From IMG/VR virus record IMGVR_UViG_3300031952_000039, positions 1 through 42,329 of that record: a stretch of DNA of 42,329 bases; one strand, written 5' to 3'. Below the pieces are notes generated by a model. The model saw only the letters and a program-made list of their open reading frames with translations, was not told the DNA's origin and searched no databases. Source of the DNA: a virus. Every line of letters begins with the position of its first letter. Position 1 is the first letter of the stretch. Below are positions 4,865 to 23,307 of this stretch, piece after piece. A program made the position numbers and the translations under genes.

Positions 4865-4963
4865 TTAGTCGTTTGTTGACTGGCTCAATCTGGTCTGTAT
4901 TCTGCGCTCGAAAGCCCAGTTGGCGGGCTTAGCATAAATCTTCGGATTCGTGAAATCAGTCAT
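4865..4963 (-). CDS. Putative leader peptide in repeat copy A
   Basis: 32 codons plus stop: ATG at 4963, TAA at 4865-4867, 13 nt before the ATG of the 100-residue gene. The first 19 residues, MTDFTNPKIYAKPANWAFE, are identical to those at 23220. It lies almost wholly in the repeated element, so conservation may reflect DNA or RNA function rather than the peptide. Confidence 0.3.
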   Translation of the reverse strand: MTDFTNPKIYAKPANWAFERRIQTRLSQSTND

Positions 4964-4981
4964 TTTTTGGCTGAAGCCAAG
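4891..4981. repeat. Intergenic repeat copy A (divergent regulatory region)
   Basis: About 90 bp nearly identical (this strand) to 16355-16455 and, inverted, to 23202-23307. It contains two palindromes: AAGCCC-n7-GGGCTT (read on the minus strand) and TTGGCT-GA-AGCCAA. It lies between the divergent genes starting at 4851 (-) and 4999 (+), as the other copies lie between divergent genes. Likely a bidirectional control element. Confidence 0.75.
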
Positions 4982-4987
4982 TTCTAG

Positions 4988-4994
4988 GTAGTTA
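4988..4994 (+). promoter_or_regulatory. GTAGTTA motif before 4999 gene
   Basis: GTAGTTACGG starts 7 bp after repeat copy A and 4 nt before the GTG start at 4999. The same ten bases follow copy B at 16461, also just before a start codon. Confidence 0.5.
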
Positions 4995-4998
4995 CGGT

Positions 4999-5553
4999 GT
5001 GAAATTTGCAGAGCGCAAAGAGTGGCACTACGATTCTGAGGTATTTCGGCAGCAGCCGGACGTGACAACTGCGATGACGATTCAAGCCGAGTACATCAAG
5101 CGCGGTTCGCCCCGTCCTCCGCCCACTTTCATGGAGGTTGACCGGTCTTCTGACAAATTCGATGCTCTCTGGCATGTTTCGTTGGACGATAGAACGGTCT
5201 TCTCGCGGGTTTTTCAGATGCCGGTGCTGATTCAGTTTGAGAAGCCGGACTGGCGGCTGACCCGCGTGGGCATCGTGCCCCAGCAAAAAACCACGGTCTG
5301 GATGGCCAATCTTGTCTTGCAGGAGTTCGACTGGTTCCCCCTGCGGGGCGACATGATGTTTTACAACGGCTATCGGCATCTCATTTTGGACGTGGAGCTG
5401 AGGCCGGAGGCGTATTGGGCGCAGACCAACGTGTGGCTTGGCCTGACCTGCAAAACGGTCATCCCGGCGCAGGGCGATGCCCGACCGTTGACCGATGTGT
5501 CACAAGCGGTGCCTCGTGAACTGGTGCAAACCCGGCCCTCGCCTTATGTTTGA
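4999..5553 (+). CDS. Probable neck/head-tail connector protein
   Basis: 184 residues with a GTG start 4 nt after GTAGTTA. Not firmly recognised. It is aromatic and strand-rich (MMFYNGYRHLILDVELRPEA, WAQTNVWLGLTCKTV). It opens the plus-strand run that leads into the sheath and tube genes, which is where neck and tail-completion genes usually sit. The downstream ATG overlaps its 3' end, suggesting coupling. Structural role is inferred from position only. Confidence 0.6.
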   Translation: MKFAERKEWHYDSEVFRQQPDVTTAMTIQAEYIKRGSPRPPPTFMEVDRSSDKFDALWHVSLDDRTVFSRVFQMPVLIQFEKPDWRLTRVGIVPQQKTTVWMANLVLQEFDWFPLRGDMMFYNGYRHLILDVELRPEAYWAQTNVWLGLTCKTVIPAQGDARPLTDVSQAVPRELVQTRPSPYV

Positions 5554-5800
5554 CGCTGCCAACACTGTTCGATGGTTGCTGGAAACCGACATGGACGACC
5601 CCGAGGCGTTTCTGCGCAACATGCCCGGCACGTTCTACGTGGCGTACCGGCTCGACACTGATGTCTACACAGAAGTTGCCAAGGTCGAAGCCTTGTCTCC
5701 ACAGGACGCCATCCGGCGCTTTAATGCGCACGCCATGCAACAGGGTCTTGCCGTGGAACGCATTTACGGAGCCTACACGGAGGCGGACTGGAAAGACTGA
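5546..5800 (+). CDS. Small conserved-looking hypothetical protein
   Basis: 84 residues. ATG at 5546 overlaps the end of the preceding gene by 8 nt (ATGTTTGA); the frame is open further upstream but that would overlap more. Sequence: FYVAYRLDTDVYTEVAKVEAL followed by a helix 'PQDAIRRFNAHAMQQG', a small alpha/beta pattern. No family recognised. The overlapping starts in this run suggest one operon. Confidence 0.6.
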   Translation: MFDAANTVRWLLETDMDDPEAFLRNMPGTFYVAYRLDTDVYTEVAKVEALSPQDAIRRFNAHAMQQGLAVERIYGAYTEADWKD

Positions 5801-5808
5801 GACTGAGC

Positions 5809-6159
5809 ATGAACCTGTTTCTGGACGAATACATGGTGCAGCCGCTCAATGTAGACTTCAAGGAGAGGTTTCGCGATGCTGAGCAGAAAAGCAAAGTGGT
5901 GCAGGCATTGTATACATGGCTCATCGACGTGGCGCGCAAAAAGCCGCTGCCTGACCTCGAACAGCGGTGCCTGCGCATGAAACGGGAATTTGAGGTGCTG
6001 GTTGAAAACATGGAGGTCAAGATTCACGAGGGGAAGTGGGTAGTTAAGGCGGCAGGCTCAGCTGAAGGCACCTTGCAGAAGCTGCGACTGGGGACGAGTT
6101 GGTTTGACGGCAACCCGGACGTAATCGAAGTCGTGCTGACCGGGTTGTTCAATTTGTAG
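5809..6159 (+). CDS. Helical hypothetical protein
   Basis: 116 residues, ATG at 5809. Mainly helical and charged in the first two thirds (VVQALYTWLIDVARKKP, LEQRCLRMKREFEVLVE), then a strand segment. Not recognised. Its TAG stop lies inside the GTAGTTA motif of the next gene. An extra GTAGTTA at 6040-6046, inside this gene, has no nearby start codon. Confidence 0.6.
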   Translation: MNLFLDEYMVQPLNVDFKERFRDAEQKSKVVQALYTWLIDVARKKPLPDLEQRCLRMKREFEVLVENMEVKIHEGKWVVKAAGSAEGTLQKLRLGTSWFDGNPDVIEVVLTGLFNL

Positions 6160-6162
6160 TTA
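6156..6162 (+). promoter_or_regulatory. GTAGTTA motif before 6169 gene
   Basis: GTAGTTAAAG contains the stop codon of the upstream gene and ends 6 nt before ATG 6169. There is no Shine-Dalgarno in the gap. Confidence 0.5.
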
Positions 6163-6168
6163 AAGAAC

Positions 6169-6435
6169 ATGAAAGACATCAAGAATATCATCGAGACGCT
6201 TGTGGTGCCCGCGCACGTCAGGAGCAATTACGTTCAGAAGGCCGTCAACCGGATTCTGGGCGAGGACATCACCGCTGGCCAGACAGTTGCGGTCATCGAC
6301 GACGTAATCACTGGCATGTCGGGAGCCAAGGGCAAGGTCAAGGGTGAATCGCGTCAGGGTTCCGGCTTTGTTGATGTGGAGCTGGAGAACGGCGTGACGA
6401 TGCCCATGCAGTCGTCGCTGCTCGTGCCGGTGTGA
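6169..6435 (+). CDS. Small SH3/KOW-like barrel protein
   Basis: 88 residues. An N-terminal helical segment (IKNIIETLVVPAHVRSNYVQKAVNRIL) is followed by 'AGQTVAVIDDVITGMSGAKGKV...GSGFVDVELENG', a G-rich alternating-strand pattern like SH3/KOW barrels. Function unknown. It sits in the neck/tail run immediately after GTAGTTA. Confidence 0.6.
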   Translation: MKDIKNIIETLVVPAHVRSNYVQKAVNRILGEDITAGQTVAVIDDVITGMSGAKGKVKGESRQGSGFVDVELENGVTMPMQSSLLVPV

Positions 6436-6461
6436 CCGTTCGGAGGCTGGTGGCCCCCGCT

Positions 6462-6468
6462 GTAGTTA
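6462..6468 (+). promoter_or_regulatory. GTAGTTA motif before 6475 gene
   Basis: TGTAGTTAGG ends a few nt before ATG 6475 (6 nt from the 7-mer). Same arrangement as at 307. Confidence 0.5.
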
Positions 6469-6474
6469 GGTCGC

Positions 6475-7494
6475 ATGGCCACCAACACTCATGACGGAAC
6501 ACTCGATGTGAGCGCAGGCGCGTTGAGTGGAACGTCAATGCGGTATCACGAGCTGGCGATTCAGCGCTGGCTCAATCGGCTGTTTGTCGTGCGGGAGGGG
6601 TACAGCGTGCCAGTGGTTTTTACTTCACCGCTGGACGCATTTTCTCAGTTCCGGCAGCTTTGGGCTGCGGAAAACAATCCCTTTTCCTACCTGCTCGACC
6701 TGAAGGACGCCAACGGCACCCCTCTTTATGAGCCATTTCCTTCACCGGTGCGCTATCCCATCATCAGCGTCCACCGCAAGAACTGGAAGCTGCGCCAGTA
6801 CCAGAACTTCAGCATCCACCGCTGGAGGCACCTGAACTGGCCCACGGTCAGTGATGCGGGTGCGCCGGTCAGCGGCAAACCGAACGTCGGCACAGGTCTG
6901 ACAAAGTTCGACCTTGGCAATGTCACCACGTCGCGGATGCCGATGGCGTGGGATTACCGTTTCCAACTTGACCACTTCTGCCTGCGCCCGGACACGCAGG
7001 CTTTTTTCATCAGCCAGCTGACGGAAGAGTTTTACCGGACGGGGGGTCCAACGCCCCAGACGTGGATTCAGGTGTTTTATCCCGGCTGGGGCACGCGTCT
7101 GGTGCGCCTTTACATCGAAGGGGACATCGAGAGCATGACGCCGGAAGAACCGGAACAGGACAAGAGCATTGAGTTCCGCACCAGTGCTACCGTGGTGTTG
7201 GAGGGTTTCAACGTGGACCTCCGCTACAAGATTTTCCCGGCTTTCTGGACGCTGGTTTTTGCCAGCGGTTCGGTCGACCCCACCACGCTGGACAGCGCTT
7301 TTCAGGTGCTGGCCACCAAAGATGAGCGGATTGGCAATGCCAACGCCACGCTGGATGACCGGCCCAATGTGCCCGAAGAGGCCAATGACAACTGGACGTA
7401 TCAGGAAATCGGTCAGTTGCCGACGCTGGAAATAGACCCGGAGCCGATTACGGCCGCGAACCAGTTTGGAGTGCTGACCATCACACGTAGTTAA
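6475..7494 (+). CDS. Tail-terminator/neck-like structural protein
   Basis: 339 residues, ATG 6 nt after GTAGTTA. Not recognised with certainty. It is aromatic- and strand-rich ('FSYLLDLKDANGTPLYEPFPSPVRYPIISVHRKNW' region; 'YRFQLDHFCLRPDTQAFFISQL'), has few charged helices, and lies directly before the sheath, where tail-completion or terminator genes (gp15/gp3 in T4) are often found. The TAA stop falls inside another GTAGTTA (7487-7493). Confidence 0.55.
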   Translation: MATNTHDGTLDVSAGALSGTSMRYHELAIQRWLNRLFVVREGYSVPVVFTSPLDAFSQFRQLWAAENNPFSYLLDLKDANGTPLYEPFPSPVRYPIISVHRKNWKLRQYQNFSIHRWRHLNWPTVSDAGAPVSGKPNVGTGLTKFDLGNVTTSRMPMAWDYRFQLDHFCLRPDTQAFFISQLTEEFYRTGGPTPQTWIQVFYPGWGTRLVRLYIEGDIESMTPEEPEQDKSIEFRTSATVVLEGFNVDLRYKIFPAFWTLVFASGSVDPTTLDSAFQVLATKDERIGNANATLDDRPNVPEEANDNWTYQEIGQLPTLEIDPEPITAANQFGVLTITRS

Positions 7495-7512
7495 GTGCGA
7501 CAGCACGCAGCC

Positions 7513-7520
7513 TGTAGACA
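7513..7520. promoter_or_regulatory. Intergenic TGTAGACA site before sheath gene
   Basis: TGTAGACAATG in the 88-bp gap upstream of the sheath gene is one of the few intergenic members of the widespread TGTNNACA family. Function unknown; it could be an operator or promoter part. Confidence 0.3.
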
Positions 7521-7551
7521 ATGATAATTTCGCTGCTGAAAAGATTGGCTC

Positions 7552-7558
7552 GTAGTTA
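7552..7558 (+). promoter_or_regulatory. GTAGTTA motif before tail sheath
   Basis: CGTAGTTAAAG lies 24 nt upstream of the sheath ATG, a longer gap than for other genes. A second copy at 7487-7493 overlaps the previous stop. If this is a promoter, the sheath mRNA has a short leader. Confidence 0.5.
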
Positions 7559-7582
7559 AAGCAAGTTGAACTGAGCACGATT

Positions 7583-9847
7583 ATGGCAACAATTGCAAAG
7601 ACCTTTCCGGGCGTTTACGCGCAAGTTATCGACCAGAGTTTCATCACTCCGGTTCGCAGCAGCTTCAAACCCGGTTTGATTGGTGTCGCAGCGAAGGGGG
7701 CATTCAATACTCCGGTGTCCATCCGTTCGCTGAACGAGTTTGTTCAGCAGTTTGGGCAGCCCCTGACGACGACTTACGCTGACGGTGATTTCGGCGCGCC
7801 CGTTGGCGCTGGCTTCTTCTTGGCTGATGCGGTCGCCATGATTTCTGACATGACCGACGGCGTTACGGTCGTGCGCGTGGGCAACCAGTACAATGACCTG
7901 CCCACAGCGGACGTTTCCGGCACGGCGGGCGCGTACACTTTCCTGACCGGGCTGACCAATGCGGTTACCATCAACTCGATGCTGACCGCAGGCGATGACG
8001 TTTTCGTCGCCATCAGCAAGCCCGGCGAAGTCAGCACGGTGAACGTCTCGGTGTTGAGCGCCGGGACCGGTTCGGGACTCATCACGCTGGAAAGCTCGGG
8101 CGACTCGCTCGCGGCTGACTATCAGGGTGCCACGATTGTTTACAGCAATTATTCCGGGGCGGCGTGGCAGGCCGAGGGTGCCATCTACGCCTACGCCTAC
8201 GGCACCAGTGCTTCCGATTACGTGGACCGCGCCGTCACTTCGGTTGGAACTGTCTCCGGTGACAAAAACCAGTTTTTCTTCGACGTGGCCAGCAATCCGA
8301 CCAATGTCGTTGCCGGTGGTGTCTACAAAATCATGGAGACGAACCAGCACACGACGAGTGAAGTCCGGGTCAGCAAGGTGGTGGGCAACCGCGTGTATCT
8401 GGAAACTTCGGACAACACCCGCCTTGGCTATCAGGCTACCCCGCTGCAAGACAACTACACCAGCGCCGTGCTTTATCGGGCCAGCACCGCGCTTCAGGTT
8501 CCGTTTCTGTATCTGGAGGCCAAGACCGCAGGCGAGTGGGCCAACGGCTCCAACCAGAAGACGGGTCTGTACGTGCAGGTGCGCCCGGGTTCAGCCGCAG
8601 GCACCAAAAAGTTGGAAGTGTTCTGGAACGCTGCCTTGGTGGAGACACTGGACAACATCAGTGACACCGCCACGGCCAGCGATGATGATTCCTATGAAAG
8701 TCTCATCTCCCTGTCTGAGTACATTTCGCTCAAGCAGCGCTTTTCCTACGGCGGTGGTCAGCTCTACCACGCTGCCAATACGGTCGCGCCTTGGGATTCT
8801 GCGTACTTCGTCTACAATGCGGGTCCGCCGCTTTCGATGCCGCTCGGGGCGCTCAACGCGGGCATTCTCAGCCTCAGCGTCAGCAACACGGTGGACACGG
8901 GTGGTCAGTTCACCCAAGGGTACAATGGTGCCAACGCGCAAGTTGCCGATTTCGTGGGCACGGTCGACCCGAGCGATGATTCGGCCAGCGGCATCAAAGC
9001 CTTTGAGGATGCCGATAACGTGGATGTCAACCTACTGGCAGCCCCGATGGACGAAGTGCCCATCGAAGTCATGCAGGAACTCCGGCGCGTAGCCAAGAAG
9101 GTCAATGCGCTCGCGCTCGCGGATGTGCCTGCGGGACTCAATGCCCGGCAGGCCATCGACTGGCACAATGGCGCTGGACTCTACGTGAACCAAGGCAGGA
9201 TTGACGACCCGAACATCGCGGTGTTCTGGAACTGGTTCAACATCACTGACCCGTTCACCGGCCTTCAGAAAATGGTGCCGCCGTCTCTTGGGGCGCTGCG
9301 CTGCTTGGCCTTTACCTTCCAGCGCGACAAGCCGTGGTTTGCGGCTGCGGGTGAAACGCGTGGCCTCATTCCTGAAGCCCTCAGCGTGGAATTTGACCGC
9401 GTCAGCGACGCCACCAAACAGGCGATGTACGGCAATGGCAACAGCATCAATCCGATTCTGAAGCTGCGGGGCCGTTTCATGCTCTACGGAGAGCGCACGC
9501 TGCAACGGGCGGAAAGCAAGCTCACCGCCATGCACTCGGTCAATCTCGTCAACTGGGTGGTCACCGGGCTGGCGGTCATTGCCCGTCGTTTCGTGTTTGA
9601 CCCGAACGACCAAGAGCTGCTCACTCAAATCCGGCTCTCGTTCAGCGAGTTCATGGACAAGGTCCGCAATGAGCGCGGCGTTGAGGAGTATTTGCTCGTT
9701 GTAGACGAGCGCAACAACACGGCGGACACGCGCAATCGCCGCGAGGTCATCGTTGACCTGTCTCTGGTTCCGACCGATGTGGCCGAGCGCATCTACATCA
9801 ACGCAACGGTGCGCGAGAGCGGTGCCCAGCTTAACAGCGTGGCGTAA
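7583..9847 (+). CDS. Tail sheath protein (gp18-like)
   Basis: 754 residues. The N-terminus 'FPGVYAQVIDQS..' and 'FKPGLIGVAAKGAFNTPVSI' is the standard opening of contractile sheath proteins (PGVYxxE and G.a.kGP.n.P). The C-terminal domain also fits: 'RGRFMLYGERTLQ', 'VNLVNWVVTGLAVIARRFVFDPND', then the strand handshake 'VIVDLSLVPTDVAERIYINATVRE'. Sheath subunits polymerise around the tube and contract at infection. The insertion domains (residues c.80-470) are long, giving a bigger protein than T4 gp18. It is followed after 29 bp by the tube gene, the usual order. Confidence 0.93.
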   Translation: MATIAKTFPGVYAQVIDQSFITPVRSSFKPGLIGVAAKGAFNTPVSIRSLNEFVQQFGQPLTTTYADGDFGAPVGAGFFLADAVAMISDMTDGVTVVRVGNQYNDLPTADVSGTAGAYTFLTGLTNAVTINSMLTAGDDVFVAISKPGEVSTVNVSVLSAGTGSGLITLESSGDSLAADYQGATIVYSNYSGAAWQAEGAIYAYAYGTSASDYVDRAVTSVGTVSGDKNQFFFDVASNPTNVVAGGVYKIMETNQHTTSEVRVSKVVGNRVYLETSDNTRLGYQATPLQDNYTSAVLYRASTALQVPFLYLEAKTAGEWANGSNQKTGLYVQVRPGSAAGTKKLEVFWNAALVETLDNISDTATASDDDSYESLISLSEYISLKQRFSYGGGQLYHAANTVAPWDSAYFVYNAGPPLSMPLGALNAGILSLSVSNTVDTGGQFTQGYNGANAQVADFVGTVDPSDDSASGIKAFEDADNVDVNLLAAPMDEVPIEVMQELRRVAKKVNALALADVPAGLNARQAIDWHNGAGLYVNQGRIDDPNIAVFWNWFNITDPFTGLQKMVPPSLGALRCLAFTFQRDKPWFAAAGETRGLIPEALSVEFDRVSDATKQAMYGNGNSINPILKLRGRFMLYGERTLQRAESKLTAMHSVNLVNWVVTGLAVIARRFVFDPNDQELLTQIRLSFSEFMDKVRNERGVEEYLLVVDERNNTADTRNRREVIVDLSLVPTDVAERIYINATVRESGAQLNSVA

Positions 9848-9876
9848 CACGATTGTAAACAACAAACACTGACATT

Positions 9877-10494
9877 ATGGCCCGGATGAATTTCCATAAC
9901 ACCTTCGGCGCGGCAGCGACAGCCCAAGGCATTGACTTGCAACGCATCGACCTGTGGAAAGTCACTCTCATGCTGCCACAGGCTCTGGGCATGGACTGGA
10001 AGGAGAACGTCGAGTTTGCGCTGGAAAAGTTCCCCTTCCCTGAGCGCACCCGCGAGATGACAGCGGTCAAGTACATGCAGCAGACCAACTATCTCATCGG
10101 GGGCGACACCGCGACGCCTGCTGTTGAGATTCCAGTGCGCTACGCTTTTCAGCAGCAGACTGCCGAGGCACTGGAAAAGTGGAATTTCCTGTGCGCGAAT
10201 CCGCTGACAGGCGGTGTCGGGCTGACTTCAGCCTGCAAGTGCAAGGGCTACATGTCGTGGATTGTGCCCAACATGCAGAAGCAGATTCAGGACATCCGGG
10301 GCAACGCCCTCCCGGGTGAGAACACGATGGACCAAGGTCTGGTTTACGTGCTGGAAGGCTGCATCATCAAGGGGTTGAAATTCACGGATGCCGACATGAC
10401 CCAGAGCGGGTACGTCAACCTGTTGTTCAGCCTGCAAATGGACCGCTACTACCCGGCGAACATCAACCAAATGGTGCCTATCGTCGCAACTTGA
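9877..10494 (+). CDS. Tail tube protein (gp19-like)
   Basis: 205 residues. It lies directly downstream of the sheath and shows the T4 gp19-type core: 'FPFPERTREMTAVKYMQQTNYLIGG' (in parts), 'VEIPVRYAFQQQTAEALEKWNFLC' and a C-terminal 'YVNLLFSLQMDRYYPANIN'. The subunits stack as hexameric rings to form the DNA channel. The TGA stop overlaps the next gene's ATG (TGATG), so the zinc-ribbon gene is probably coupled. Confidence 0.9.
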   Translation: MARMNFHNTFGAAATAQGIDLQRIDLWKVTLMLPQALGMDWKENVEFALEKFPFPERTREMTAVKYMQQTNYLIGGDTATPAVEIPVRYAFQQQTAEALEKWNFLCANPLTGGVGLTSACKCKGYMSWIVPNMQKQIQDIRGNALPGENTMDQGLVYVLEGCIIKGLKFTDADMTQSGYVNLLFSLQMDRYYPANINQMVPIVAT

Positions 10495-10877
10495 TGAGTG
10501 AATCCGTTGAAGCCGTTATTCTGCGCATTGGACGCCGCCCGGTGGCAGAGTCGCCGTTGGCGGAGCCGCCTGCGCTGAACAGCGACCTTGGCGTGGCATT
10601 GATTTGCCCGCGCTGTCTGGGCATTGACGGGCAGCGCCGTCAGTTTGAAGATGCGTTGCTGGTTGAGTGTCCTGATTGCGGTGCGCATTTTTCAGAACGG
10701 CTGGACACGCTGTCAAAAATTGTTCTTGTCAAATTGACTGAGATGGAGCGGCGTAGACATCAGTTCTTAGGGGTGGGGCGGCGGCGCAGGCACACGCATG
10801 CGCATGCTGAACACAAGCCCCACCAACAGCAGTCGCTTCACCTAAAGACTGAGGCGCGGATTAAAACTGAAGAATGA
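10494..10877 (+). CDS. Zinc-ribbon protein
   Basis: 127 residues, ATG at 10494 overlapping the tube stop. Two CxxC knuckles are visible, C38-x2-C41 (CPRC) and C59-x2-C62 (CPDC), about 17 residues apart: a rubredoxin-type ribbon. The C-terminus is Arg/His/Gln-rich (GRRRRHTHAHAEHKPHQQQ). Function unknown. Its place after the tube is where tail-assembly chaperones often lie, but no chaperone motif is visible. Confidence 0.65.
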   Translation: MSESVEAVILRIGRRPVAESPLAEPPALNSDLGVALICPRCLGIDGQRRQFEDALLVECPDCGAHFSERLDTLSKIVLVKLTEMERRRHQFLGVGRRRRHTHAHAEHKPHQQQSLHLKTEARIKTEE

Positions 10878-11659
10878 ATCCTTACATCACCAAAATCACA
10901 GGTGTCCCCGTGCAAGAGCGCGGACCAGTCGGACAAGCAATCAAACAGGCGTTTGGCGGCGGTGCTGATGCAGCTCCCGATGACGAAGGCGAAACCCCGC
11001 GCGGCGGTGGCGAAGGGCTTCCGCCCGGCGACGAAGGGCTTCCGCCCGAGGGTGGCGGTGGTGAAGGGGGCGAAGGGCTTCCGCCCGAGGGTGGTGGTGG
11101 TGAAGGGGGCGAAGGGCTTCCGCCCGAGGGCGGCGGTGACGAAGGGCTTCCGCCCGAGGGTGGCGACGAAGGGCTTGAACCGTGGCAACAGCGCTTGCTG
11201 GACCACGTCAAGCAGCGCTTTATCTCGGAGCGTGTCAACGGTTTCCAGTCAGCAGCGGGCACAATGTACCCGCCTGCTCCGCAAGAGGAGGTTGAGCAGC
11301 GCTGGGAGCAGAATAAGCACAAATTCATGGCGGTCATACAGAGTCCGAGCGTTCGTGCGAGATTTGGTCCCGATGGCAGGCTCGCGGGTGTGACGGGAGC
11401 GGGCGAAGGCGAAATGTGCCCGCACTGTGGGCAACCGATGCCAGCTGCGGAAGGCGGTGACGGTGCTGGTCTTCCGCCCGAGGATGCCGCACTGGGTGGC
11501 GACGAAGGGCTTCCGCCCGAGGAGCCTGAACAGCCTGAACAGCAGCCACCGCCTGAGCCTGCGGGTGAAAATGAACAGGAGGAGCCACCGCCTGAGCGTG
11601 GTCCGCGCCTGCCAGAATCAGCTCGCCGCAGGGCTGCCCGCAAACTGGATGACGAATAA
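10874..11659 (+). CDS. Repeat-rich disordered protein with zinc knuckle
   Basis: 261 residues, ATG overlapping the previous stop (ATGA). Residues c.45-100 and c.195-260 are Gly/Glu/Pro-rich repeats of the form EGLPPEGGGGEG. A middle helical block (EPWQQRLLDHVKQRFISERV, VEQRWEQNKHKFMAVIQSP) ends in CPHCGQP (C182-x2-C185), only half of a typical four-ligand site. The tail is Arg/Lys-rich (SARRRAARKLDDE). Function unknown. Similar P/G/E-rich tails occur in the products of 1246-2754 and 38877-39347. Confidence 0.65.
   Translation: MNPYITKITGVPVQERGPVGQAIKQAFGGGADAAPDDEGETPRGGGEGLPPGDEGLPPEGGGGEGGEGLPPEGGGGEGGEGLPPEGGGDEGLPPEGGDEGLEPWQQRLLDHVKQRFISERVNGFQSAAGTMYPPAPQEEVEQRWEQNKHKFMAVIQSPSVRARFGPDGRLAGVTGAGEGEMCPHCGQPMPAAEGGDGAGLPPEDAALGGDEGLPPEEPEQPEQQPPPEPAGENEQEEPPPERGPRLPESARRRAARKLDDE
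11012..11170 (+). repeat. Tandem coding repeat (EGLPPE units)
   Basis: The 15-mer GAAGGGCTTCCGCCC starts at 11012, 11033, 11072, 11111 and 11141, with a further copy at 11504. Periods are 21, 39, 39 and 30 bp, all multiples of three, so the reading frame is kept. Copy number could vary by slippage. Confidence 0.8.
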
Positions 11660-12195: not shown

Positions 12196-12197
12196 GC

Positions 12198-12662: not shown

Positions 12663-12664
12663 AC

Positions 12665-15276: not shown

Positions 15277-15300
15277 TACCTGTAGAACGGAAAAAAGTGG

Positions 15301-16326
15301 TTACAGCCCGAAAATAACGCGGGATACCACGGCGGCAGGAGTGGGCTGCACCACGCTGTTGGGCGGGACGATGGGCGGGCCGGTGGGCGACCCATTGTTT
15401 CCGTTGGAATGGGTGTGTGCAGACAGGTAGGACAGCAGGCTGTCCATCCACGCGGTCAGCTGATTGCCGAGCACGAACGGTTCGCTGGCACCGGAGCCAA
15501 GCGTCAGCGTCGGAAAGACCAAAGCCATGCTTCCGATGCTGGTCAGGGTGAGTGTAGACAATGTTTTGATGCTGCCTTTCAGCAGCGCTTCGACGGTAAA
15601 ATTCCGCACCGTGAACAGACCGATGTCTTGGGTGGCTTTGACCTTGAATTCGCCGAAGTCTACATTGATGATGAAATCGCCGGTGGTCGCGAGGAACTCG
15701 TAGCTGGCCGCCATCGCCAGCCAGTCGTTGAAAATCTGGAACTTCATGTCCTCGTTGATGAGCAGCAGTCCGCTCAGGTCGGCGTCGTCCAGTTGCAGCA
15801 TCTGACCCAGCGGTGTAGACATTTTTACGCTGCCATCGTAGCTGCCTTGCGCGGAAGCATCAGTCAAGACGACATTGTAACCTTGGCTGGTGGTGGCAAT
15901 GACCCCGCCCTGATTGATTTCAAAGCCGTTGCTCCACTTGAACCAAGCGGCCCGGTCAGGGCGGCCCACGCTGTTGGGCGGCGCGGGTGGCGTGCCCGGC
16001 TTGTAGCTGTGCAACGGGAAGTTTTGCCGTTCATCGGTGGTCTGCATGCCCCACTCCCAAATGGGTTTTTCCGGTTCGCCGTCGAGGAAGCGCACCCAGA
16101 CCTTGTCGTTTACTTCGGGCAGATGGGAGAATCCGCCCGAGGCTTTGGTGGAGCCTGCGGGCAGTCCGGCTGGAAGCGCCCACGGCAGGTCGTTGGTGCC
16201 AATGTAGCGACCGGCGTCGCCGCTGGTGCCGTAGACGTGTGGCACGCGCACCTTCAAGCGTCCGAGCTTTTCAGGGTCGTTGTTCCCTTCCACGATGCCG
16301 CCGTAGGTCATTACCAGCGAGTTCAT
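15301..16326 (-). CDS. Tail spike protein (gp5/VgrG-like)
   Basis: 341 residues. The N-terminal OB-fold is clear: 'NNDPEKLGRLKVRVPHVYG', 'LPWALPAG', 'FSHLPEVNDKVWVRFLDGEPEKPIWEW' (shown in parts), the standard gp5/VgrG/GpV opening. The C-terminal third is repetitive strands (beta-helix-like) ending with 'HTHSNGNNGSPTGPP', the histidine/TGPP signature of spike proteins. No lysozyme domain is inserted, unlike T4 gp5. ATG at 16326 lies 7 nt after GTAGTTA and overlaps the stop of the repeat-B ORF (ATGA). Confidence 0.85.
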   Translation of the reverse strand: MNSLVMTYGGIVEGNNDPEKLGRLKVRVPHVYGTSGDAGRYIGTNDLPWALPAGLPAGSTKASGGFSHLPEVNDKVWVRFLDGEPEKPIWEWGMQTTDERQNFPLHSYKPGTPPAPPNSVGRPDRAAWFKWSNGFEINQGGVIATTSQGYNVVLTDASAQGSYDGSVKMSTPLGQMLQLDDADLSGLLLINEDMKFQIFNDWLAMAASYEFLATTGDFIINVDFGEFKVKATQDIGLFTVRNFTVEALLKGSIKTLSTLTLTSIGSMALVFPTLTLGSGASEPFVLGNQLTAWMDSLLSYLSAHTHSNGNNGSPTGPPIVPPNSVVQPTPAAVVSRVIFGL

Positions 16327-16333
16327 TTTGGTT

Positions 16334-16340
16334 TAACTAC
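16334..16340 (-). promoter_or_regulatory. GTAGTTA motif before spike gene
   Basis: ACGTAGTTAAACC on the minus strand ends 7 nt before the spike ATG at 16326. No Shine-Dalgarno in the gap. Confidence 0.5.
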
Positions 16341-16354
16341 GTGCCGAGAAGTCA

Positions 16355-16455
16355 TTGACCGTTCTGCTCTGGTTTGTAATCTGCACTCGAAAGCCCAGTT
16401 GGCGGGCTTGGCATAAATCTTCGGATTCGTGAAATCAGCTGTGGCTGAAGCCAAG
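16355..16455. repeat. Intergenic repeat copy B (divergent regulatory region)
   Basis: About 100 bp, same orientation as copy A (4891-4981) and inverted relative to copy C (23202-23307). It lies between the divergent genes at 16326 (-) and 16474 (+). A 2-bp difference removes the ATG of the short ORF found in A and C, but the frame remains open and ends in ATGA at the spike start. Both hairpins are kept. Confidence 0.75.
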
Positions 16456-16460
16456 ATACC

Positions 16461-16467
16461 GTAGTTA
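16461..16467 (+). promoter_or_regulatory. GTAGTTA motif before 16474 gene
   Basis: GTAGTTACGG, 5 bp after repeat copy B and 6 nt before ATG 16474; matches the arrangement beside copy A. Confidence 0.5.
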
Positions 16468-16473
16468 CGGGGT

Positions 16474-17343
16474 ATGCCAGCGGATTTTTCGACAGTGTCA
16501 CCACCGAAGCGCAGTGCGCGAGCGCGGCCTGTTTCAGTGAGCAAACAGCAAAACCTGTGGGGGAAGAGTATCGACCCACATCGTGTTGACCTGTGGTACG
16601 TGAGTCTGGAAGAAGCGCGTGCAGGTCTGCAATTCGCACTGGAAGACGCGGGAGCAGAGGGCGTTCAATCCCTGCCGGAGATGCTGCCCCAGCACGTCCA
16701 GTCCGTTACGCTGCCGGAACCGGTCAAGATTCGAGCTGAGGCTGTCCGGCGAGAAAGCATTGCGTACCAGATGCCATCGTGGGACGAGCCGCTCGACCCT
16801 GTTTCGGTCACTTTCATTTTGGAAGACACCACTCCAAACCCTGTGCTCACCCTGCTGGAGACGTGGGCCAGTCTGGTCAGGGCAGGTCGCGGGATGCGCA
16901 GCGACAGTGGAGGATTCAGGGGTCAGAGCCTGAAGTTGAACAACAAGTTTGGAATCATCTTTCGGTTCAACATCTACATCTATTTGCTGCAAGGTTCGAC
17001 GGGCCGCATTCAAATCAACACGAATGCCGCGCTCGCGACGGCAGCCCAATCCCAGATAAAACGCAAGGCGCTGGCGCAGATGGGTGATGCGCTGAAAAAG
17101 GAAGCGTCTGCGTGGGGAGACTTTTTCAGTAAAAAGAAGCCGTTGGCCCCGTCGCCGCCGACTGCTCCGCTGCGCGCTCCTGACGCGGATGAGTACTGCG
17201 TGCTGAACGTCGTCAAAACGTGGATGGCGCGCGTGTGGCTCTCGGGGTACAAGGTCAACGAGCTCAGCTACAACAATAATGGCATGGTCACGGTCACCGC
17301 GACGTTCCAAACCGAGTTCTTGAACATGCAGTCAGACACATGA
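16474..17343 (+). CDS. Tube-like baseplate protein (gp54/gp48-type initiator)
   Basis: 289 residues. A tube-fold core is suggested by 'DPHRVDLWYVSLEEA', 'LPQHVQSVTLPEPVKIRAEAV' and 'LDPVSVTFILED', which parallel 'IDLWKVTLMLP...LPF..RTREM' and 'VEIPVRYAF' in the tube protein at 9877. A C-terminal 'KTWMARVWLSGYKVNELSYNNNGMVTVTATFQTEF' is typical of tube-fold ends. T4 gp48/gp54 start tube polymerisation on the baseplate. The gene overlaps the next by ATGA. Family call by internal similarity. Confidence 0.6.
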   Translation: MPADFSTVSPPKRSARARPVSVSKQQNLWGKSIDPHRVDLWYVSLEEARAGLQFALEDAGAEGVQSLPEMLPQHVQSVTLPEPVKIRAEAVRRESIAYQMPSWDEPLDPVSVTFILEDTTPNPVLTLLETWASLVRAGRGMRSDSGGFRGQSLKLNNKFGIIFRFNIYIYLLQGSTGRIQINTNAALATAAQSQIKRKALAQMGDALKKEASAWGDFFSKKKPLAPSPPTAPLRAPDADEYCVLNVVKTWMARVWLSGYKVNELSYNNNGMVTVTATFQTEFLNMQSDT

Positions 17344-18500
17344 GCAAACTCGCTGTCAACAACGCGCAGGCAAAAGTGCTGGCCCGGTTGAGGTCGCCCT
17401 CGGCCCGGCGTGCCTACCTGCTGTTCGGTTTTGCTCGCGAGGGTTTCACCAACCGGGGCTACACGCTGCGGCTGGCTGCGGGTGAAGCTGCGGTCGCTTG
17501 CGGGGCAGGCGTTGTCTACAGCGTGATACAGAAGTCGGCGGACTGGCAGCATTCGGCTGGTGACTTGGATTCCTTTTTTCCGTTCGAGGTCATCATCGAC
17601 CACGGACAGGACATTTTCTCCGTTGTTTCGGGCATGCAATCCACGCGGTTGCAGGTGGGGGTGCCCATCGCTCGTGGCGACCTGATGGGGCCGCTGGTGA
17701 CTGATGAGTGTTTTTTCAGCCTGCGCGTCAGCAGCGTGACTGTCAATCCAGTGGACATCAACCGCCATTTCGTGGCGATGACGGAGCAGCAGGTGCCCGG
17801 ACAGGGGCACAAGCTGCGCTTTGGACCCGACGCCATCGCGCGCTCGCTCGCGGAGGGCGTGGTTTCGCTTGTCTACGGCGGCATACGCTATTTTCAGGAC
17901 ATCAGCCTGAACAGTCCGTTTCTGACCAACATTGATTTCAACGGCGCAGGCAACAAGACAGGCTTGGCCGCCACCGGGCTGACGACGGGAGATTTCTGGA
18001 ATGTATACAGTGCTGGTTCTTTTGCGGTCACGCCCAGTGGCTCTGGCTACGGCTACGGCTACGGCTACTGTACAGGCACCACCTACAGTCGAAATCCACA
18101 GGTGTTTCTCTATAACCACCTGAACGAAAAGACGGCGGTGCGCTTTGAACGGGTGGCTTCGGCCAGCGGCACCGGGGGCAGCAGCAGTCAGTTTGACCCC
18201 ATGCTGTCCACGTGGATTGGAGCCAATGGTGGCACTCCCGAGGAAAACTTTTTTGCCATCAAGGGGCTGCCCGCAGGCAACTACGACCTCTACCTGTATG
18301 CCAACGAGGGCGCGTCATCCACCTTTTACGTGGCTGTAGACAATGGAACGCCCGCCATAAAATCCACGTCTTCCACGGGTACGGCTGCTTTTATTGCCGA
18401 CGCCAACTACGTCAAGTTCTCTGTTTCGGTTGGAAGCAGTTCTTCTGTCAGTGTGAAAGCTTACGGCTATTTAGCCGGACTTCAACTGATGCGAACTTGA
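17340..18500 (+). CDS. Virion protein with C-terminal adhesin-like domain
   Basis: 386 residues, ATG overlapping the previous stop. The first 190 residues are not recognised. Residues c.198-386 ('IDFNGAGNKTGLAATGLTTG', 'DFWNVYSAG', a GYGYGYGY run, 'FFAIKGLPAGNYDLYLYA') follow a jelly-roll-like pattern I associate with bacterial surface and sugar-binding proteins. The repeated GGCTAC codons near 18050 could slip in length by multiples of six. A host-binding or fibre role is inferred. Confidence 0.6.
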   Translation: MSKLAVNNAQAKVLARLRSPSARRAYLLFGFAREGFTNRGYTLRLAAGEAAVACGAGVVYSVIQKSADWQHSAGDLDSFFPFEVIIDHGQDIFSVVSGMQSTRLQVGVPIARGDLMGPLVTDECFFSLRVSSVTVNPVDINRHFVAMTEQQVPGQGHKLRFGPDAIARSLAEGVVSLVYGGIRYFQDISLNSPFLTNIDFNGAGNKTGLAATGLTTGDFWNVYSAGSFAVTPSGSGYGYGYGYCTGTTYSRNPQVFLYNHLNEKTAVRFERVASASGTGGSSSQFDPMLSTWIGANGGTPEENFFAIKGLPAGNYDLYLYANEGASSTFYVAVDNGTPAIKSTSSTGTAAFIADANYVKFSVSVGSSSSVSVKAYGYLAGLQLMRT

Positions 18501-18982
18501 ATATCGTCTGGCACACCTGTCCAACAGTGACGGCCCTGCTCGTGTTACGAGACGCCACGCGTTTTCCGTTGGCCACAGAGGCTGTTCGTTGTTTTCGTGA
18601 GCAAGACTGGCCTTACCTTGACTTGTGTGTCATTAACGCAACTGGAGTGCCACTGGTGCCCGGAGAAATAAGCTTTCCACCGCATAAATCTTTTGAATTT
18701 CTCAAAAAAGTGGCCATTGATTGTGCTGAGGGAGAATGGTGCGTTTGGTGGGCTGACGACTGCTGGTTTGCGCCCGGTTACGTTCGCGCACACATGCGCG
18801 CTGCGGACAAATTGCGCTACACCCAAGCTTGGGAGGTTACTGCGTGCGCGGCAGGCACTGGCCGCGTGACCACGTGCAGAGTCAACAATCTTACAGGATT
18901 CTTCAGGTTTAATCCAAGGCCCAAAGAATGTCACGTTATTGATGGAAGAGAAATGGTTCTTCGCTGGGTGCATGAACATTGA
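18497..18982 (+). CDS. Short GT-A-type glycosyltransferase-like protein
   Basis: 161 residues; TTG start at 18497 overlapping the previous stop (TTGA). It has a GT2-like opening 'TVTALLVLRDATRFPLATEAVRCFREQDWPYLDLCVIN' (in parts), a DxD-like acidic site in WWADDCW, and a short beta region. It is shorter than usual GT2 enzymes. First gene of a glycosyltransferase cassette, less GC-rich by eye than upstream genes. Donor and acceptor unknown. Confidence 0.6.
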   Translation: MNIVWHTCPTVTALLVLRDATRFPLATEAVRCFREQDWPYLDLCVINATGVPLVPGEISFPPHKSFEFLKKVAIDCAEGEWCVWWADDCWFAPGYVRAHMRAADKLRYTQAWEVTACAAGTGRVTTCRVNNLTGFFRFNPRPKECHVIDGREMVLRWVHEH

Positions 18983-20081
18983 ACGTGCCATTAAGCGCTA
19001 CCGTAAGTGTTGGCGAAATCCGGTTCGTCTGGGTAGCGCTGCGTCTGACGTGTCGCGTCCCCTTACATTTGCTGCTGACATCAACAGCTTTACTGGTTAC
19101 GGTTTGCACGCCATCCAAATCATTCGTGACCTGATTGGCATGGGGGTGCAGGTGGCCGTGCGGCCCACCAGTTGCAATGAGTCGTTTGGAGCACTCATCC
19201 CGGCTGATATAAGAGCGCTTTTTGTGCTTGAGTCATCGTTCGCCGAATGGGAACTATTGTTGCATCCTCCTAATTTTCCTCCAACGAGTGGAAAGAAAAC
19301 AGCGTACTTTACCATGTGGGAAGCATCGAGGCTTCCACCCAATGGAGTGTCTGTTTTGAACAAGGCTGAAATTGTGATTGTGCCAAACGTCTGGAATGCC
19401 ACCTGTTTTTCAGCGTGCGGCGTCAATGCTCCTATCAGGGTAGTACCTTTGGGCATGAACACAGAGGTCTATAGGTACAGGCCAAAGAAACAGCACGGGC
19501 CGTTTGTTTTTGGAGCCGCCGGCCGGATGGCACATGGAGGCGTGCGCAAGGGATTGAATGAAGTTATTGACTTGTTTCTCAAGGCATTTCCGAACGAGCC
19601 AGACGTTCGGCTGCATATCAAATGTCACCCGGACTGTCCGCTGGCGGAGATAACGGATGAGCGCATCGTAGCAGTACCTTTGCATCTAAGCGACGCCGAA
19701 TTGGCCGATTGGTACGCTGGATTGGATTGCTTTGTCTCGGCGGCGCGTGCCGAAGGTTGGGGTTTGATGCAGATGCAAGCGATGGCTACAGGACGTGCGC
19801 TTATTTCCGTAAATTTTGGCGGCATCTCAGAATTTTTTGAGCGCGGGACAGGTTATGAAGTGGAATATAGGTTGCGCGGTGCGCGCGATTTTTACGCTAA
19901 TCTTGGAGTTTGGGCGGAACCTGTAGACAAATCGTTCATCGAGGCCATGCGCCAAGCGTATGAGAACCCTTCTGAGTGTTGTCGATTTGGAGTGGCCGCC
20001 GCAAAATCTGTTAAGAATCTAAGCTGGCACCGTGCGAACAAAGCGTTGGCAGTGGTGCTAAAAGAGACAGGAGCTATATGA
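18972..20081 (+). CDS. GT-B glycosyltransferase (GT4-like)
   Basis: 369 residues; ATG at 18972 overlaps the preceding gene by 11 nt. The C-terminal Rossmann half is typical: 'FVFGAAGRMAHGGVRKGLNEVIDLF', 'LHLSDAELADWYAGLDCFVSAARAEGWGL' (in parts) and 'AMATGRALISVNFGGISEFF'. These enzymes transfer sugars from nucleotide donors. The E-x7-E element reads E-GWGLMQM-Q, so the second acidic residue is glutamine here. Part of an overlapping cassette (18497-22653). The target could be host surface glycan, virion or DNA; undetermined. Confidence 0.8.
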   Translation: MNIERAIKRYRKCWRNPVRLGSAASDVSRPLTFAADINSFTGYGLHAIQIIRDLIGMGVQVAVRPTSCNESFGALIPADIRALFVLESSFAEWELLLHPPNFPPTSGKKTAYFTMWEASRLPPNGVSVLNKAEIVIVPNVWNATCFSACGVNAPIRVVPLGMNTEVYRYRPKKQHGPFVFGAAGRMAHGGVRKGLNEVIDLFLKAFPNEPDVRLHIKCHPDCPLAEITDERIVAVPLHLSDAELADWYAGLDCFVSAARAEGWGLMQMQAMATGRALISVNFGGISEFFERGTGYEVEYRLRGARDFYANLGVWAEPVDKSFIEAMRQAYENPSECCRFGVAAAKSVKNLSWHRANKALAVVLKETGAI

Positions 20082-21910
20082 CAAAAATAAATTTTCGTGT
20101 TTACGGGTGGTATGAACCATCCATTTTTCCACTGCTGGGCCGATTGTTGGAACAGGTTGGAAGCGAGGACACGGTGGCGGTTATTGAATCGTCGGAAGGC
20201 ACGCAGCCTGCATGGATTAAAACCTTGAAGGAATTTCAGCGGGTCTACCCTAGACTACAGGTGATAAGCACCGAGTTTCGTGATTGGCAGGTGTTGTACA
20301 CTTTTGCCATCAGCACCGTGCCCGAGGGTGAATGGATGATGGCTCTTGATGCAGACGAGTGGATTTCAAAAGGATTTGTTCAAGCCATTCGAGAAGGTAT
20401 TGATGCCAACGCGGAGACTGACATTTTATCTGTTTTAAGGTGTTATCCAGCAGAGGCAGACTTGTTGAAGGGAGACGAATACGTGCGGGCTAACTGTCAC
20501 ACGCTGGCAGCACCTTACAATCACACGCCTAACAGGCAGAATCGACTCTTAAAACGCGGCGCAGTCTACTTTAAGGGTGCGCGGCATGTCAGTGCTTACG
20601 GCACAAAGGTCAAGAACTTGGATGCGCCAGACGCCATACTCATTCATCCATGCGAAATGCGGGACAAAAAGATGTTTTACAGCCGCTATTCGCGACTTTT
20701 TGTACGACCCACGTCAGCAGTACACGACATGGGTATTTACAATGAAGTTTATGCGGGCAGATGTTATCGAACGCCCCACAAATTTAAGCCTACAGACGTG
20801 GTTGTTGACATTGGAGCGCATGTAGGCTGCTTTAGTGTCCAAGCCCTAGAGGCAGGCGCTGGGCGTGTGATAGCGGTTGAAGCTGACCCAGCTAACGCTG
20901 CTCATTTTCGTCACACTACCGAGGCATGGGACAAAAAGGTGTGTCTGGTAGAAGCGGCTGCATGGCGTTCAGACGTGTGTCCTGCTACCTTGCTTTTTAG
21001 CGCTTTCGACAAAACAAATCCTAAAGCAAACACAGGTGGAGGCACTATATGGTCAAAGGGCATCGAAGTAAAAGCCGTGGCTTTTGACACGTTGCTCTCT
21101 GATGTAGCCGAGGTGGCTTTTCTAAAACTGGATTGCGAAGGGTCTGAATTTCCAATACTCTACACGTCCAAACAACTTGGTAAAGTGAACCGAATAGCGC
21201 TTGAATGGCACACGCATGACCGTCCGTGGTCTGCTGAATTTGGCTGCACACCGAAGGCGCTGGCTTCTTATCTCAGTCAACTTGGATTTGAGGTAAAAAT
21301 AGTAACGGACATTGACCGTAATCTGGGTCTAATCTTTGCAGCTCGCTGGGGTTTTAAGTTTTGGGAATCCTCCAAGGGTGAAGGTGTTGCATGGCACTGT
21401 ATTCAGGACTTGGAAACAGCGCGTGAACTTATTTTGTCAGGTTACAAGAATGACGGTAAATTTCCAGCAGACACTTTTGCCGATGCTCCCAAAGGCGGCA
21501 GTTGGCTCGATTTTGGTTGTGGCTGTGGAAGAAATTTGGGGGTTTTGAAGTCCCTTTGCGACAAGTTGAGTGCTTACGACTACCCGAACATGATTAAACT
21601 GGTGTCGGAAGAACTGGCTGCGAGCGTTACCTTTATCATGTATCCATTGGAAAACATCGTGGACAGCTATGATGTAATCCACGCTTCTCTGGTCTTGCAG
21701 CATTATCCAGAGACAGACTTGCGCAATGCGCTGGCTTTTTTGGCAAAGCGCCTTAACGCCGGGGGCAAACTGCACGTGCAGGGGCGCGGTCATCTGGACA
21801 ACGGTGTGAATATCTGGAAAATAATCGCAGAGTTCTTTCAACCTGTGACTCCAGTTGACGCAGAAGACAGCACTATCCGGCATCAGAGCGTTTACTACGC
21901 TCCCTTGTGA
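20078..21910 (+). CDS. Three-domain glycosyltransferase-FkbM-methyltransferase fusion
   Basis: 610 residues with ATGA overlap at its start and a visible AGGAG-like Shine-Dalgarno (CAGGAGC), rare in this window. Domain 1 (c.1-215): GT2-type, with the DxD in ALDADEWI near residues 89-96. Domain 2 (c.238-430): FkbM-family methyltransferase, 'VVVDIGAHVGCFSVQALEAGAG', 'VIAVEADPANAAHF', 'FLKLDCEGSEFPIL' (in parts). Domain 3 (c.472-600): class I SAM methyltransferase, 'SWLDFGCGCGRNLGVL', 'YDVIHASLVLQHYPETDL'. Together they could add a sugar and methylate it. Activity and target are inferred. Confidence 0.85.
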   Translation: MTKINFRVYGWYEPSIFPLLGRLLEQVGSEDTVAVIESSEGTQPAWIKTLKEFQRVYPRLQVISTEFRDWQVLYTFAISTVPEGEWMMALDADEWISKGFVQAIREGIDANAETDILSVLRCYPAEADLLKGDEYVRANCHTLAAPYNHTPNRQNRLLKRGAVYFKGARHVSAYGTKVKNLDAPDAILIHPCEMRDKKMFYSRYSRLFVRPTSAVHDMGIYNEVYAGRCYRTPHKFKPTDVVVDIGAHVGCFSVQALEAGAGRVIAVEADPANAAHFRHTTEAWDKKVCLVEAAAWRSDVCPATLLFSAFDKTNPKANTGGGTIWSKGIEVKAVAFDTLLSDVAEVAFLKLDCEGSEFPILYTSKQLGKVNRIALEWHTHDRPWSAEFGCTPKALASYLSQLGFEVKIVTDIDRNLGLIFAARWGFKFWESSKGEGVAWHCIQDLETARELILSGYKNDGKFPADTFADAPKGGSWLDFGCGCGRNLGVLKSLCDKLSAYDYPNMIKLVSEELAASVTFIMYPLENIVDSYDVIHASLVLQHYPETDLRNALAFLAKRLNAGGKLHVQGRGHLDNGVNIWKIIAEFFQPVTPVDAEDSTIRHQSVYYAPL

Positions 21911-22653
21911 AAACCATCACGCTTGTTCTGTCAAACCGGTTGCTTTACGCGCGCGAAGTAATTGAATCGCTGCGGTTGAACAACACGCGGGACTACCACT
22001 TGTTTGCGGCCATTGAACCCGGTTATCCAGAGACGCCTGAGCTGGTGGAAATTTGTGAAAAAATAGATTTTCTGCCCACTACCATAAGTGTCAATAAGCA
22101 GCGATTCGGCGTAAACTGGAATAACTACCATGTTTTCAACAAAGTGTTTGAGCAGGGAAGTGATTTTAACGTCGCGCTGGAAGATGATACGGTGCTGTCT
22201 CCCGATGCTCTTAATCTGGCTGACTGGTTTTTTTGTTCACCTGCATGCAGTCATTACGTGCTGTTGAACTTCTACAACTTCAGTTCAGACCACGATTACC
22301 CTTTGAGCGTGGTAGAATACGATTCCATGTTTCCTTGGGCGTGGGCATTCACCCGCCCGATGTACGAGCGCTGGCTTAAACCAGAGTGGATGAACGACTC
22401 TTCTATCTGGGATGCCTCGGTTGAGCGCGTCATGCGCTTAAACAATTTAGTGTCACTTAGGCCCGTGCTTTCGCGCAGCAGAAATATCGGTCGGTGCGGG
22501 GGTACTTATGAGACGCCTGAACACTGGGACACGTGGCACGCTGGACGATGCAGCAGCAACAGGCCATCTTCCTTTGACTTGCAGACTTACCATGTAGCGA
22601 CCAATATAGTCTACAGTGGTTACCCGGAAGTGCGCACAGTTTTACCGGCGTGA
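21907..22653 (+). CDS. GNT-I/GT13-like glycosyltransferase
   Basis: 248 residues; GTG start overlapping the previous stop (GTGA). The DxD region 'FNVALEDDTVLSPDALNLADWFF' and the preceding 'RFGVNWNNYHVFNKVFEQG' follow the GNT-I-like pattern. 'SMFPWAWAFTRPMYERWLKPEW' is a plausible acceptor-side segment. Part of the overlapping cassette. Substrate unknown. Confidence 0.7.
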   Translation: MKTITLVLSNRLLYAREVIESLRLNNTRDYHLFAAIEPGYPETPELVEICEKIDFLPTTISVNKQRFGVNWNNYHVFNKVFEQGSDFNVALEDDTVLSPDALNLADWFFCSPACSHYVLLNFYNFSSDHDYPLSVVEYDSMFPWAWAFTRPMYERWLKPEWMNDSSIWDASVERVMRLNNLVSLRPVLSRSRNIGRCGGTYETPEHWDTWHAGRCSSNRPSSFDLQTYHVATNIVYSGYPEVRTVLPA

Positions 22654-23138
22654 CAGCAATGGAACTCTTCACTTACGCAAGTTACGACCACTATCGGCGT
22701 ATACAGACGGAGACGAATGCGCAGAAGATTGCTAACGTATGGGCGAACAAAGATGATATACGCTTGCTTGCCGACTACTTGAAAACGCATCTTCGTTTTC
22801 TGAAGTTTGGGATATGCCACGGAACGCGTCGGGGGGCAGAACAGGCAGCCGGACCAACAGAACCATTCGGTGCTTCATTTGAAGAGCACAGAGCACTGGT
22901 ACCAGATGGTTACGCGATTCGTGACACTGTTAGCAGCATTTCCACGGTCTGTGGCGAGCACAGAAAACATTTGATTATCACGCAAGCTGGCTGTGCCTTT
23001 AATTTGCCACCGGCACAATCGGCACCATCGGTACCGGAGGCACTGGCTCTGGGCGCTGCGCCTGCCGCGCCGCCCAGTCCATGCCCGTCTGAACCTGCGC
23101 AGTGTGGTCCACCACCGGGGAAGACTTTTCTGCCCTGA
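22650..23138 (+). pseudogene. Truncated SAM-methyltransferase remnant
   Basis: The frame opens with GTG overlapping the previous stop and is open for 162 codons. Residues 1-c.66 match a phage methyltransferase opening I recognise by pattern: 'YRRIQTETNAQKIANVWANKDDIRLLADYLK' (in parts) and FGICHGTRRGAEQ. The expected continuation (an 'IGTEISDTA'-type SAM segment) is missing in every frame. From about 22,850 the sequence becomes low-complexity Pro/Ala and overlaps the minus-strand gene at 22999-23184. Most likely a methyltransferase cut off by recombination, with a random extension. Confidence 0.5.
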
Positions 23139-23184
23139 ATTTGTCGGCGATGCCTATTTTGTCGTACAGCTCGGTTGAGTTCAT
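22999..23184 (-). CDS. Small Pro-rich protein divergent from primase
   Basis: 61 residues, ATG at 23184. The N-terminal half (NSTELYDKIGIADKFRAEKS) is plausibly folded; the C-terminus is repetitive PVPPVPMVPIVPV. Not recognised. Its presence makes repeat copy C lie between divergent genes, as copies A and B do, which supports it being expressed. Confidence 0.45.
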   Translation of the reverse strand: MNSTELYDKIGIADKFRAEKSSPVVDHTAQVQTGMDWAARQAQRPEPVPPVPMVPIVPVAN

Positions 23185-23201
23185 GTTCTATCTACTGCCA
23201 T

Positions 23202-23307
23202 CTTGGCTTCAGCCACAAAATGACTGATTTCACGAATCCGAAGATTTATGCTAAGCCCGCCAACTGGGCTTTCGAGTGCAGATTACAGACCAGAACAGAA
23301 CGGTCAA
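23202..23307. repeat. Intergenic repeat copy C (divergent regulatory region)
   Basis: About 106 bp, inverted relative to copies A and B, between 23184 (-) and the primase start at 23312 (+). It contains the hairpin AAGCCCGCCAACTGGGCTT and the palindrome-like GGCTTCAGCC. It carries CAGAACAGAACGG near the primase side. Confidence 0.75.

Follow-up and report, generated by a model that had tools for sequence, protein, structure and literature searches.

A three-copy, ~107-bp non-coding repeat between divergent genes of a phage, absent from the same gene pairs in its relatives: a putative promoter-plus-hairpin cassette

Late promoters of phage T4 consist of TATAAATA without a −35 box and are read late in infection by a gp55-type sigma factor together with the sliding clamp. 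Contractile-tailed T4-like phages also bear small, repeated, non-coding PeSL (promoter-early stem-loop) cassettes, in which a host-type early promoter lies next to a stem-loop terminator; these are dispersed among the genes, lie in hyperplastic regions and are associated with gene shuffling. The PeSL cassettes of T4-type phages were reportedly described by Arbiol and colleagues in 2010 and by Comeau and colleagues in 2014. Passages of two further papers cite the PeSL cassettes of T4-type phages (PMC4503421, PMC5348500). In the cluster K mycobacteriophages, two start-associated elements have been described: SAS, a short 13-bp motif (GGGATAGGAGCCC) with a proposed role in translation, and ESAS, paired 17-bp imperfect inverted repeats that lie directly upstream of a subset of SAS and are conserved across the cluster (PMC3203893). 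The element analyzed here most likely acts most like PeSL cassettes and ESAS, judging from a comparison of their descriptions, while matching the full definition of neither.

The stretch of DNA in question (hereinafter the window) is a complete IMG/VR record of 42,329 bp, apparently a piece of the genome of a contractile-tailed phage that has no close cultured relative; its recognizable genes include those for sheath, portal, primase, exonuclease and hub. Relatives of up to 211–238 kb were reached via the spike and primase, and a search for a closer relative of the window phage found none. Repeat search, BLAST, alignment and a sequence profile all delineate three copies of the element, each in a gap between divergent gene starts, namely 4851(−)/4999(+), 16326(−)/16474(+), and the small ORF at 23184(−)/primase at 23312(+). 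With left and right used in the sense of the element, the copies and their flanking genes are:

4876–4981, + strand: copy A of the element (TTGACT...CCAAG)
16355–16455, + strand: copy B
23202–23307, − strand: copy C, inverted
4549–4851, − strand: left gene of junction A, 100 aa, conserved in relatives
4999–5553, + strand: right gene of junction A, 184 aa, 57–68% identity in relatives
15301–16326, − strand: left gene of junction B, baseplate hub/spike (phrog_430)
16474–17343, + strand: right gene of junction B, 289 aa
23312–24391, + strand: left gene of junction C, primase (phrog_47)
22999–23184, − strand: right gene of junction C, small conserved ORF, 61 aa

Alignment of the three copies defines a conserved unit, TTGAC...CCAAG, of 101–106 nt per copy, with 92–97% identity in the two best copy pairs. 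The three near-identical copies noticed in the first-pass annotation are borne out by the repeat pairs I1 (4889–4994/23189–23294; 106 nt, 92%), I2 (16355–16438/23224–23307; 84 nt, 96%) and D2 (71 nt, 94%), and by BLAST between copies, whose e-values (5e-38, 5e-38 and 3e-28) exclude likeness by chance. The left edge of copy A, however, had been drawn short, as homology reaches the TTGAC at 4876 in A, 16355 in B and 23307 in C. The alignment likewise recovered in all three copies the 6-bp stem AAGCCC/GGGCTT and the GGCT/AGCC palindrome that had been claimed. The sequence GTAGTTACGG noted after copies A and B does stand there, but it does not belong to the element: it is an ancestral motif that the phage group carries close to start codons, and element-free relatives have it at these very junctions; copy C has GTAGATAG at this position.

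The element is known from one genome only. A profile of the three copies found no further significant copy in 1.59 Mb (the window plus relatives), no copy was found in 27 related phage records or, by BLAST, in GenBank phages, exact 22–30-mers from its core had no match in IMG/VR, and neither a gapped pattern nor an exact 22-mer matched elsewhere (22-mer against genome contigs; 84,980 genomes). Dispersed repeats in three relatives (G002, G013 and G024) were rejected as the same element, being mostly tRNA genes, as were those of G021, G010 and G013 (17757/75006), which are other repeated sigma70-like promoters (e.g., TTGACG-17-TATACT).

All three divergent gene pairs recur in the relatives, in a common gene order around each junction and with the element absent. 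The orthologous gaps there measure 16–22 bp at A (55 in one lineage), 14–43 bp at B and 11–27 bp at C, ranging up to 58 bp in local alignments, with some starts at B and C uncertain and the C junction of G002 ambiguous; the window gaps are 147, 147 and 127 bp, respectively. For most relatives, little but GTAGTTAC fills the gap, as in the following empty sites:

Junction A, relative G012: CAT-CTAAAGTAGTTACGGT-GTG (junction sequence given as CATCTAAAGTAGTTACGGTGTG)
Junction B, relative L004: CAT-CTCTAAAGGTAGTTACAGCGT-ATG
Junction C, relative G010: CAT-GCGATAGTTAGAAC-GTG

The window retains the right-hand part of this ancestral gap (A, CTAGGTAGTTACGGTGTG; B, ACCGTAGTTACGGGGTATG; C, GTAGATAGAACATG); the left start codon is separated from this retained part by the element. 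Because the same gene pairs in relatives have gaps of only about 11–58 bp, the element is taken as a lineage-specific gain; moreover, the tree places the window beside G012, G009 and G010 (support 0.87), inside the group, which makes a gain simpler than (repeated) loss. On these comparisons, the element is an insertion gained in the lineage of this phage and copied to three divergent junctions, and the copying appears to be recent. Both the conserved gene pairs with short gaps and the genome-wide character of the flanking GTAGTTAC had been overlooked in the earlier annotation.

The claim that the element is always found between divergent genes holds for 3/3 copies, but the window has at least two, and probably three, further divergent gaps without it (about 30611–30716, 31959–32072, and probably one near 40.5 kb). 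If insertion were blind and ~6 of ~41 junctions divergent, we estimate the probability of such a placement of all three copies at ~0.002. This figure bears on the main rival to the cassette reading set out below, in our judgment an unlikely one, namely a selfish or accidental repeat (MITE/REP-like, or arising by recombination or gene conversion, perhaps HNH-aided) that survived where it harmed neither gene and whose promoter features are incidental. Like REP/BIME sequences and MITEs, the element is short, palindrome-rich, non-coding, dispersed and absent from relatives; its recent spread at high identity, its several hairpins, its restriction to a single genome and the pair of HNH/endonuclease VII-type genes that this record also carries (39344–40535) would also fit such a repeat. 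Unlike them, it lies at the 5′ ends of divergent genes with a conserved promoter hexamer, and a comparison of its edges and flanks with the relatives' empty sites shows neither terminal inverted repeats nor target duplications. Moreover, its copies make the 5′ regions of tail and primase genes longer, and at such sites a neutral insertion would be the least likely. An IS200/IS605-type insertion beside GTAG was also rejected because 5–6 variable, partly ancestral bases separate the end of the element from the motif.

Within the element, we found the following promoter-like features and potential hairpins, the latter given for copy A:

4876–4903, + strand: rightward sigma70-like promoter of copy A, TTGACT-16-TATTCT, 9/12
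16355–16382, + strand: rightward sigma70-like promoter of copy B, TTGACC-16-TAATCT, 8/12
23280–23307, − strand: sigma70-like promoter of copy C in the element sense, TTGACC-16-TAATCT, 8/12
4912–4930, + strand: hairpin 1, AAGCCC-AGTTGGC-GGGCTT, ~8 nt after the −10 box, at the predicted RNA 5′ end
4937–4948, + strand: hairpin 2, AATC-TTCG-GATT, UUCG tetraloop in the rightward RNA only
4956–4974, + strand: hairpin 3, TCAGTCA-TTTTT-TGGCTGA

The promoter match of copy A ranks 6 of 84,598 window sites and was the only one recovered by a fixed-threshold promoter scan, whereas those of B and C are mediocre (rank ~123), and chance alone would give ~1 such site in the three gaps. TTGAC is nonetheless kept at a 16-nt spacing from TA[A/T]TCT in all three copies, although copy A differs at most of the 8 spacer positions that follow, and this retention beside a diverged spacer argues against a merely selfish repeat. 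In the opposite direction, a weak candidate, CTGATT-17-TATGCT (rank 135), is present in copies A and C and damaged in B. Of the bidirectional promoter proposed earlier, the rightward half is thus matched by a sigma70-like sequence, while the leftward match is weak and broken in B. At junctions A and C, promotion both ways is plausible because no other promoter motif is recognizable for the left gene; the spike gene at B has its own GTAGTTAA. At A and B, the gene on the right retains its own GTAGTTAC and hence does not need the cassette. Citing the rightward match and the fixed TTGAC spacing, we judge a dispersed control region, as the first-pass annotation had it, to be the best reading of the three copies.

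A purely DNA-level version of such control, in which the long invariant block (GAAAGCCCAGTTGGCGGGCTTRGCATAAATCTTCGGATTCGTGAAATCAG) would bind a phage regulator and drive both genes without a role for RNA, strikes us as decidedly improbable. Across the copies this block varies at just one base, more conservation than promoter hexamers alone need, its inverted repeats would suit dimeric binding, and such an operator could serve the left genes of A and C; but recent copying explains the identity equally well, the leftward promoter match is weak, and no regulator was identified. The cassette reading finds a parallel in PeSL: by description, both are small, repeated, non-coding units of a promoter (here a predicted one) plus stem-loop in contractile-tailed phages. 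On the promoter side, TTGAC-16-TA[AT]TCT occurs in all copies of our element and is strong in A only. In contrast to PeSL cassettes, the element occupies divergent gaps of unshuffled, syntenic core gene pairs beside a different, late-type motif, and its stem-loops do not qualify as terminators because they have no U-run; no credible intrinsic terminator was found in it.

The predicted rightward start falls ~2 nt before hairpin 1, and in folding the UUCG loop and the U·G pairs favor the rightward RNA. In copy B, hairpin 3 is shortened by a 5-nt deletion to TCAGC-TGTG-GCTGA, with pairing kept. These features would suit an RNA-level element, with the rightward (or both) 5′ leaders acting as a switch, a stability hairpin or a translational control; indeed, hairpin 1 would directly follow the start and the UUCG tetraloop would be in the transcript. 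We nevertheless consider this very unlikely. Folding is just mildly stronger than that of shuffled sequences (z-scores for the three copies: rightward −1.6, −1.1 and −2.0; leftward −2.2, 0.0 and −0.6), the minimum-energy fold of B differs, and three near-identical copies yield no covariation. An Rfam search of the element gave no matches, and it contains no tRNA. The RNA switch in both leaders suggested by the first reading of the sequence is not supported.

One reverse frame (MTDFTNPKIYAKPANWAFE...) is open in 3/3 copies, with its stop overlapping the ATGA of the left gene in B and C, as would befit a leftward mini-gene or leader peptide ending at the left start codon. This we rejected as highly improbable: the codon score of the frame lies below the 5th percentile of real genes, by which the element is non-coding; copy B lacks the ATG, the 5-nt indel shifts the upstream frame, and no homologue was found in relatives, phages, Pfam or PDB.

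The motif that flanks the element belongs to a family (GTAGTTA/GTATTTA/GTTCTW) shared by the window and the relatives G018, G024, G002, G007, G013, G010, G012, G017 and G020. At the three junctions it appears as:

4988–4995, + strand: GTAGTTAC before the gene at 4999
16461–16468, + strand: GTAGTTAC before the gene at 16474
16333–16340, − strand: GTAGTTAA, pointing left to the spike gene; a left-side motif accompanies copy B only
23188–23195, − strand: degenerate GTAGATAG before the small ORF at 22999–23184

Among start-proximal hexamers, TAGTTA comes first in the window (6 seen versus 0.11 expected) and in most relatives (e.g., 33 versus 0.51 in G018, 211 kb). Among 1346 starts, TAGTTA ends 1–10 nt before the start in 102 cases and GTTCTW occurs 98 times 6–10 nt before starts, counts that are approximate because gene starts come from a home-made caller; TAGTTA, TATTTA and GTTCTW all cluster 1–10 nt before starts. 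Across 110 aligned sites, the preceding base, which was not selected for, is G in 83%, and farther upstream no position is conserved and no −35 box is present; the consensus is GTAGTTAnGGC(A/G)TG. Start motifs precede 116/318 divergent first genes versus 151/1076 tandem genes (odds ratio 3.5, p=4e-17, a value that is optimistic because related records are not independent), an enrichment more in keeping with a promoter than with a ribosome-binding site. Back-to-back copies also occur in relatives (e.g., CAT-GTCGTAACTACGTAGTTA-ATG in G018). We therefore regard the GTAGTTA family as a candidate promoter, presumably of late type, whose distance of 1–10 nt from the start codon implies (near-)leaderless mRNAs.

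Like the T4 late promoter, GTAGTTA/GTATTTA comprises one AT-rich box, lacks a −35 element and stands before structural genes and at divergent junctions; it differs in sequence and in its position 1–10 nt from the start codon, and no gp55-like factor was recognized (no match among 100 mid-sized G018 proteins at E≤1e-5). Sigma70_r2 was detected among the relatives in G021 only, and searches with sigma and RNA polymerase families gave no clear candidate for a factor reading GTAGTTA. With SAS/ESAS, the present arrangement shares a short motif just before many starts and a longer repeat upstream of some of these motifs. GTAGTTA, however, has no Shine-Dalgarno character, is enriched at divergent first genes and departs from the SAS consensus GGGATAGGAGCCC; the element, at ~107 bp, is private to one lineage and absent at orthologous junctions of relatives, unlike ESAS.

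Taken together, we consider it an even prospect that the element is a ~107-bp non-coding promoter-plus-hairpin cassette gained in this lineage, which adds host sigma70 transcription beside the phage promoters. Seated between the left start codon and the GTAGTTAC motif of an ancestral short gap, the cassette would allow host sigma70 RNA polymerase to start within it and transcribe rightward into a leader with a hairpin at its 5′ end; genes otherwise on the phage-type GTAGTTA promoter would thereby gain a second, earlier mode of transcription. As the cassette separates the two genes, the left gene would have to be served by a leftward cassette start (A and C) or by its own motif (B). More tentatively, and with somewhat poor prospects, we propose a wider reading: a mobile cassette private to one lineage would enter tiny divergent gaps, split a shared bidirectional promoter motif and give core virion and primase genes an extra host-polymerase promoter, in a group that uses an undescribed start-proximal code (GTAGTTA/GTATTTA/GTTCTW) with nearly leaderless mRNAs. 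The three junctions offer before/after regulatory sites, empty in relatives and filled here, that make rewiring of conserved divergent operons directly testable. The start-proximal motif may be a more general finding than the element itself; we found no described promoter for these large uncultivated phages, and the group-wide motif provides a handle on their gene control.

Several further features were observed in these genomes. Adjoining the primase is a gene (24396–25010, + strand; phrog_3188) with an N-terminal match to GroES-like co-chaperonins, and between the conserved tail genes and the primase lies a glycosyltransferase and FkbM-type methyltransferase cluster (18939–22653, + strand), of which the proteins at 20078 and 21907 have no match in the relatives compared. 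The protein encoded at 10874–11659 (+ strand) has tandem Gly/Pro/Glu-rich repeats (EGLPPEGG) with DNA repeat units of 39 bp. The HNH/endonuclease VII-type genes form a tandem pair (39344–39916 and 39897–40535, − strand) and may encode homing endonucleases. A 39-bp inverted repeat (41704–41742/41867–41905; 97% complementary, 124 nt apart) flanks the end of a glycosyltransferase-like gene. Among the relatives, G021 (224,954 bp, with a 110-bp end repeat) has the AT-rich promoter-like TTTTTTGTTTACATTT at at least six places, and large tRNA sets are present in G002 (L023–L028), G013 (L036–L039), G024 (L101–L113) and G021 (L089–L100).
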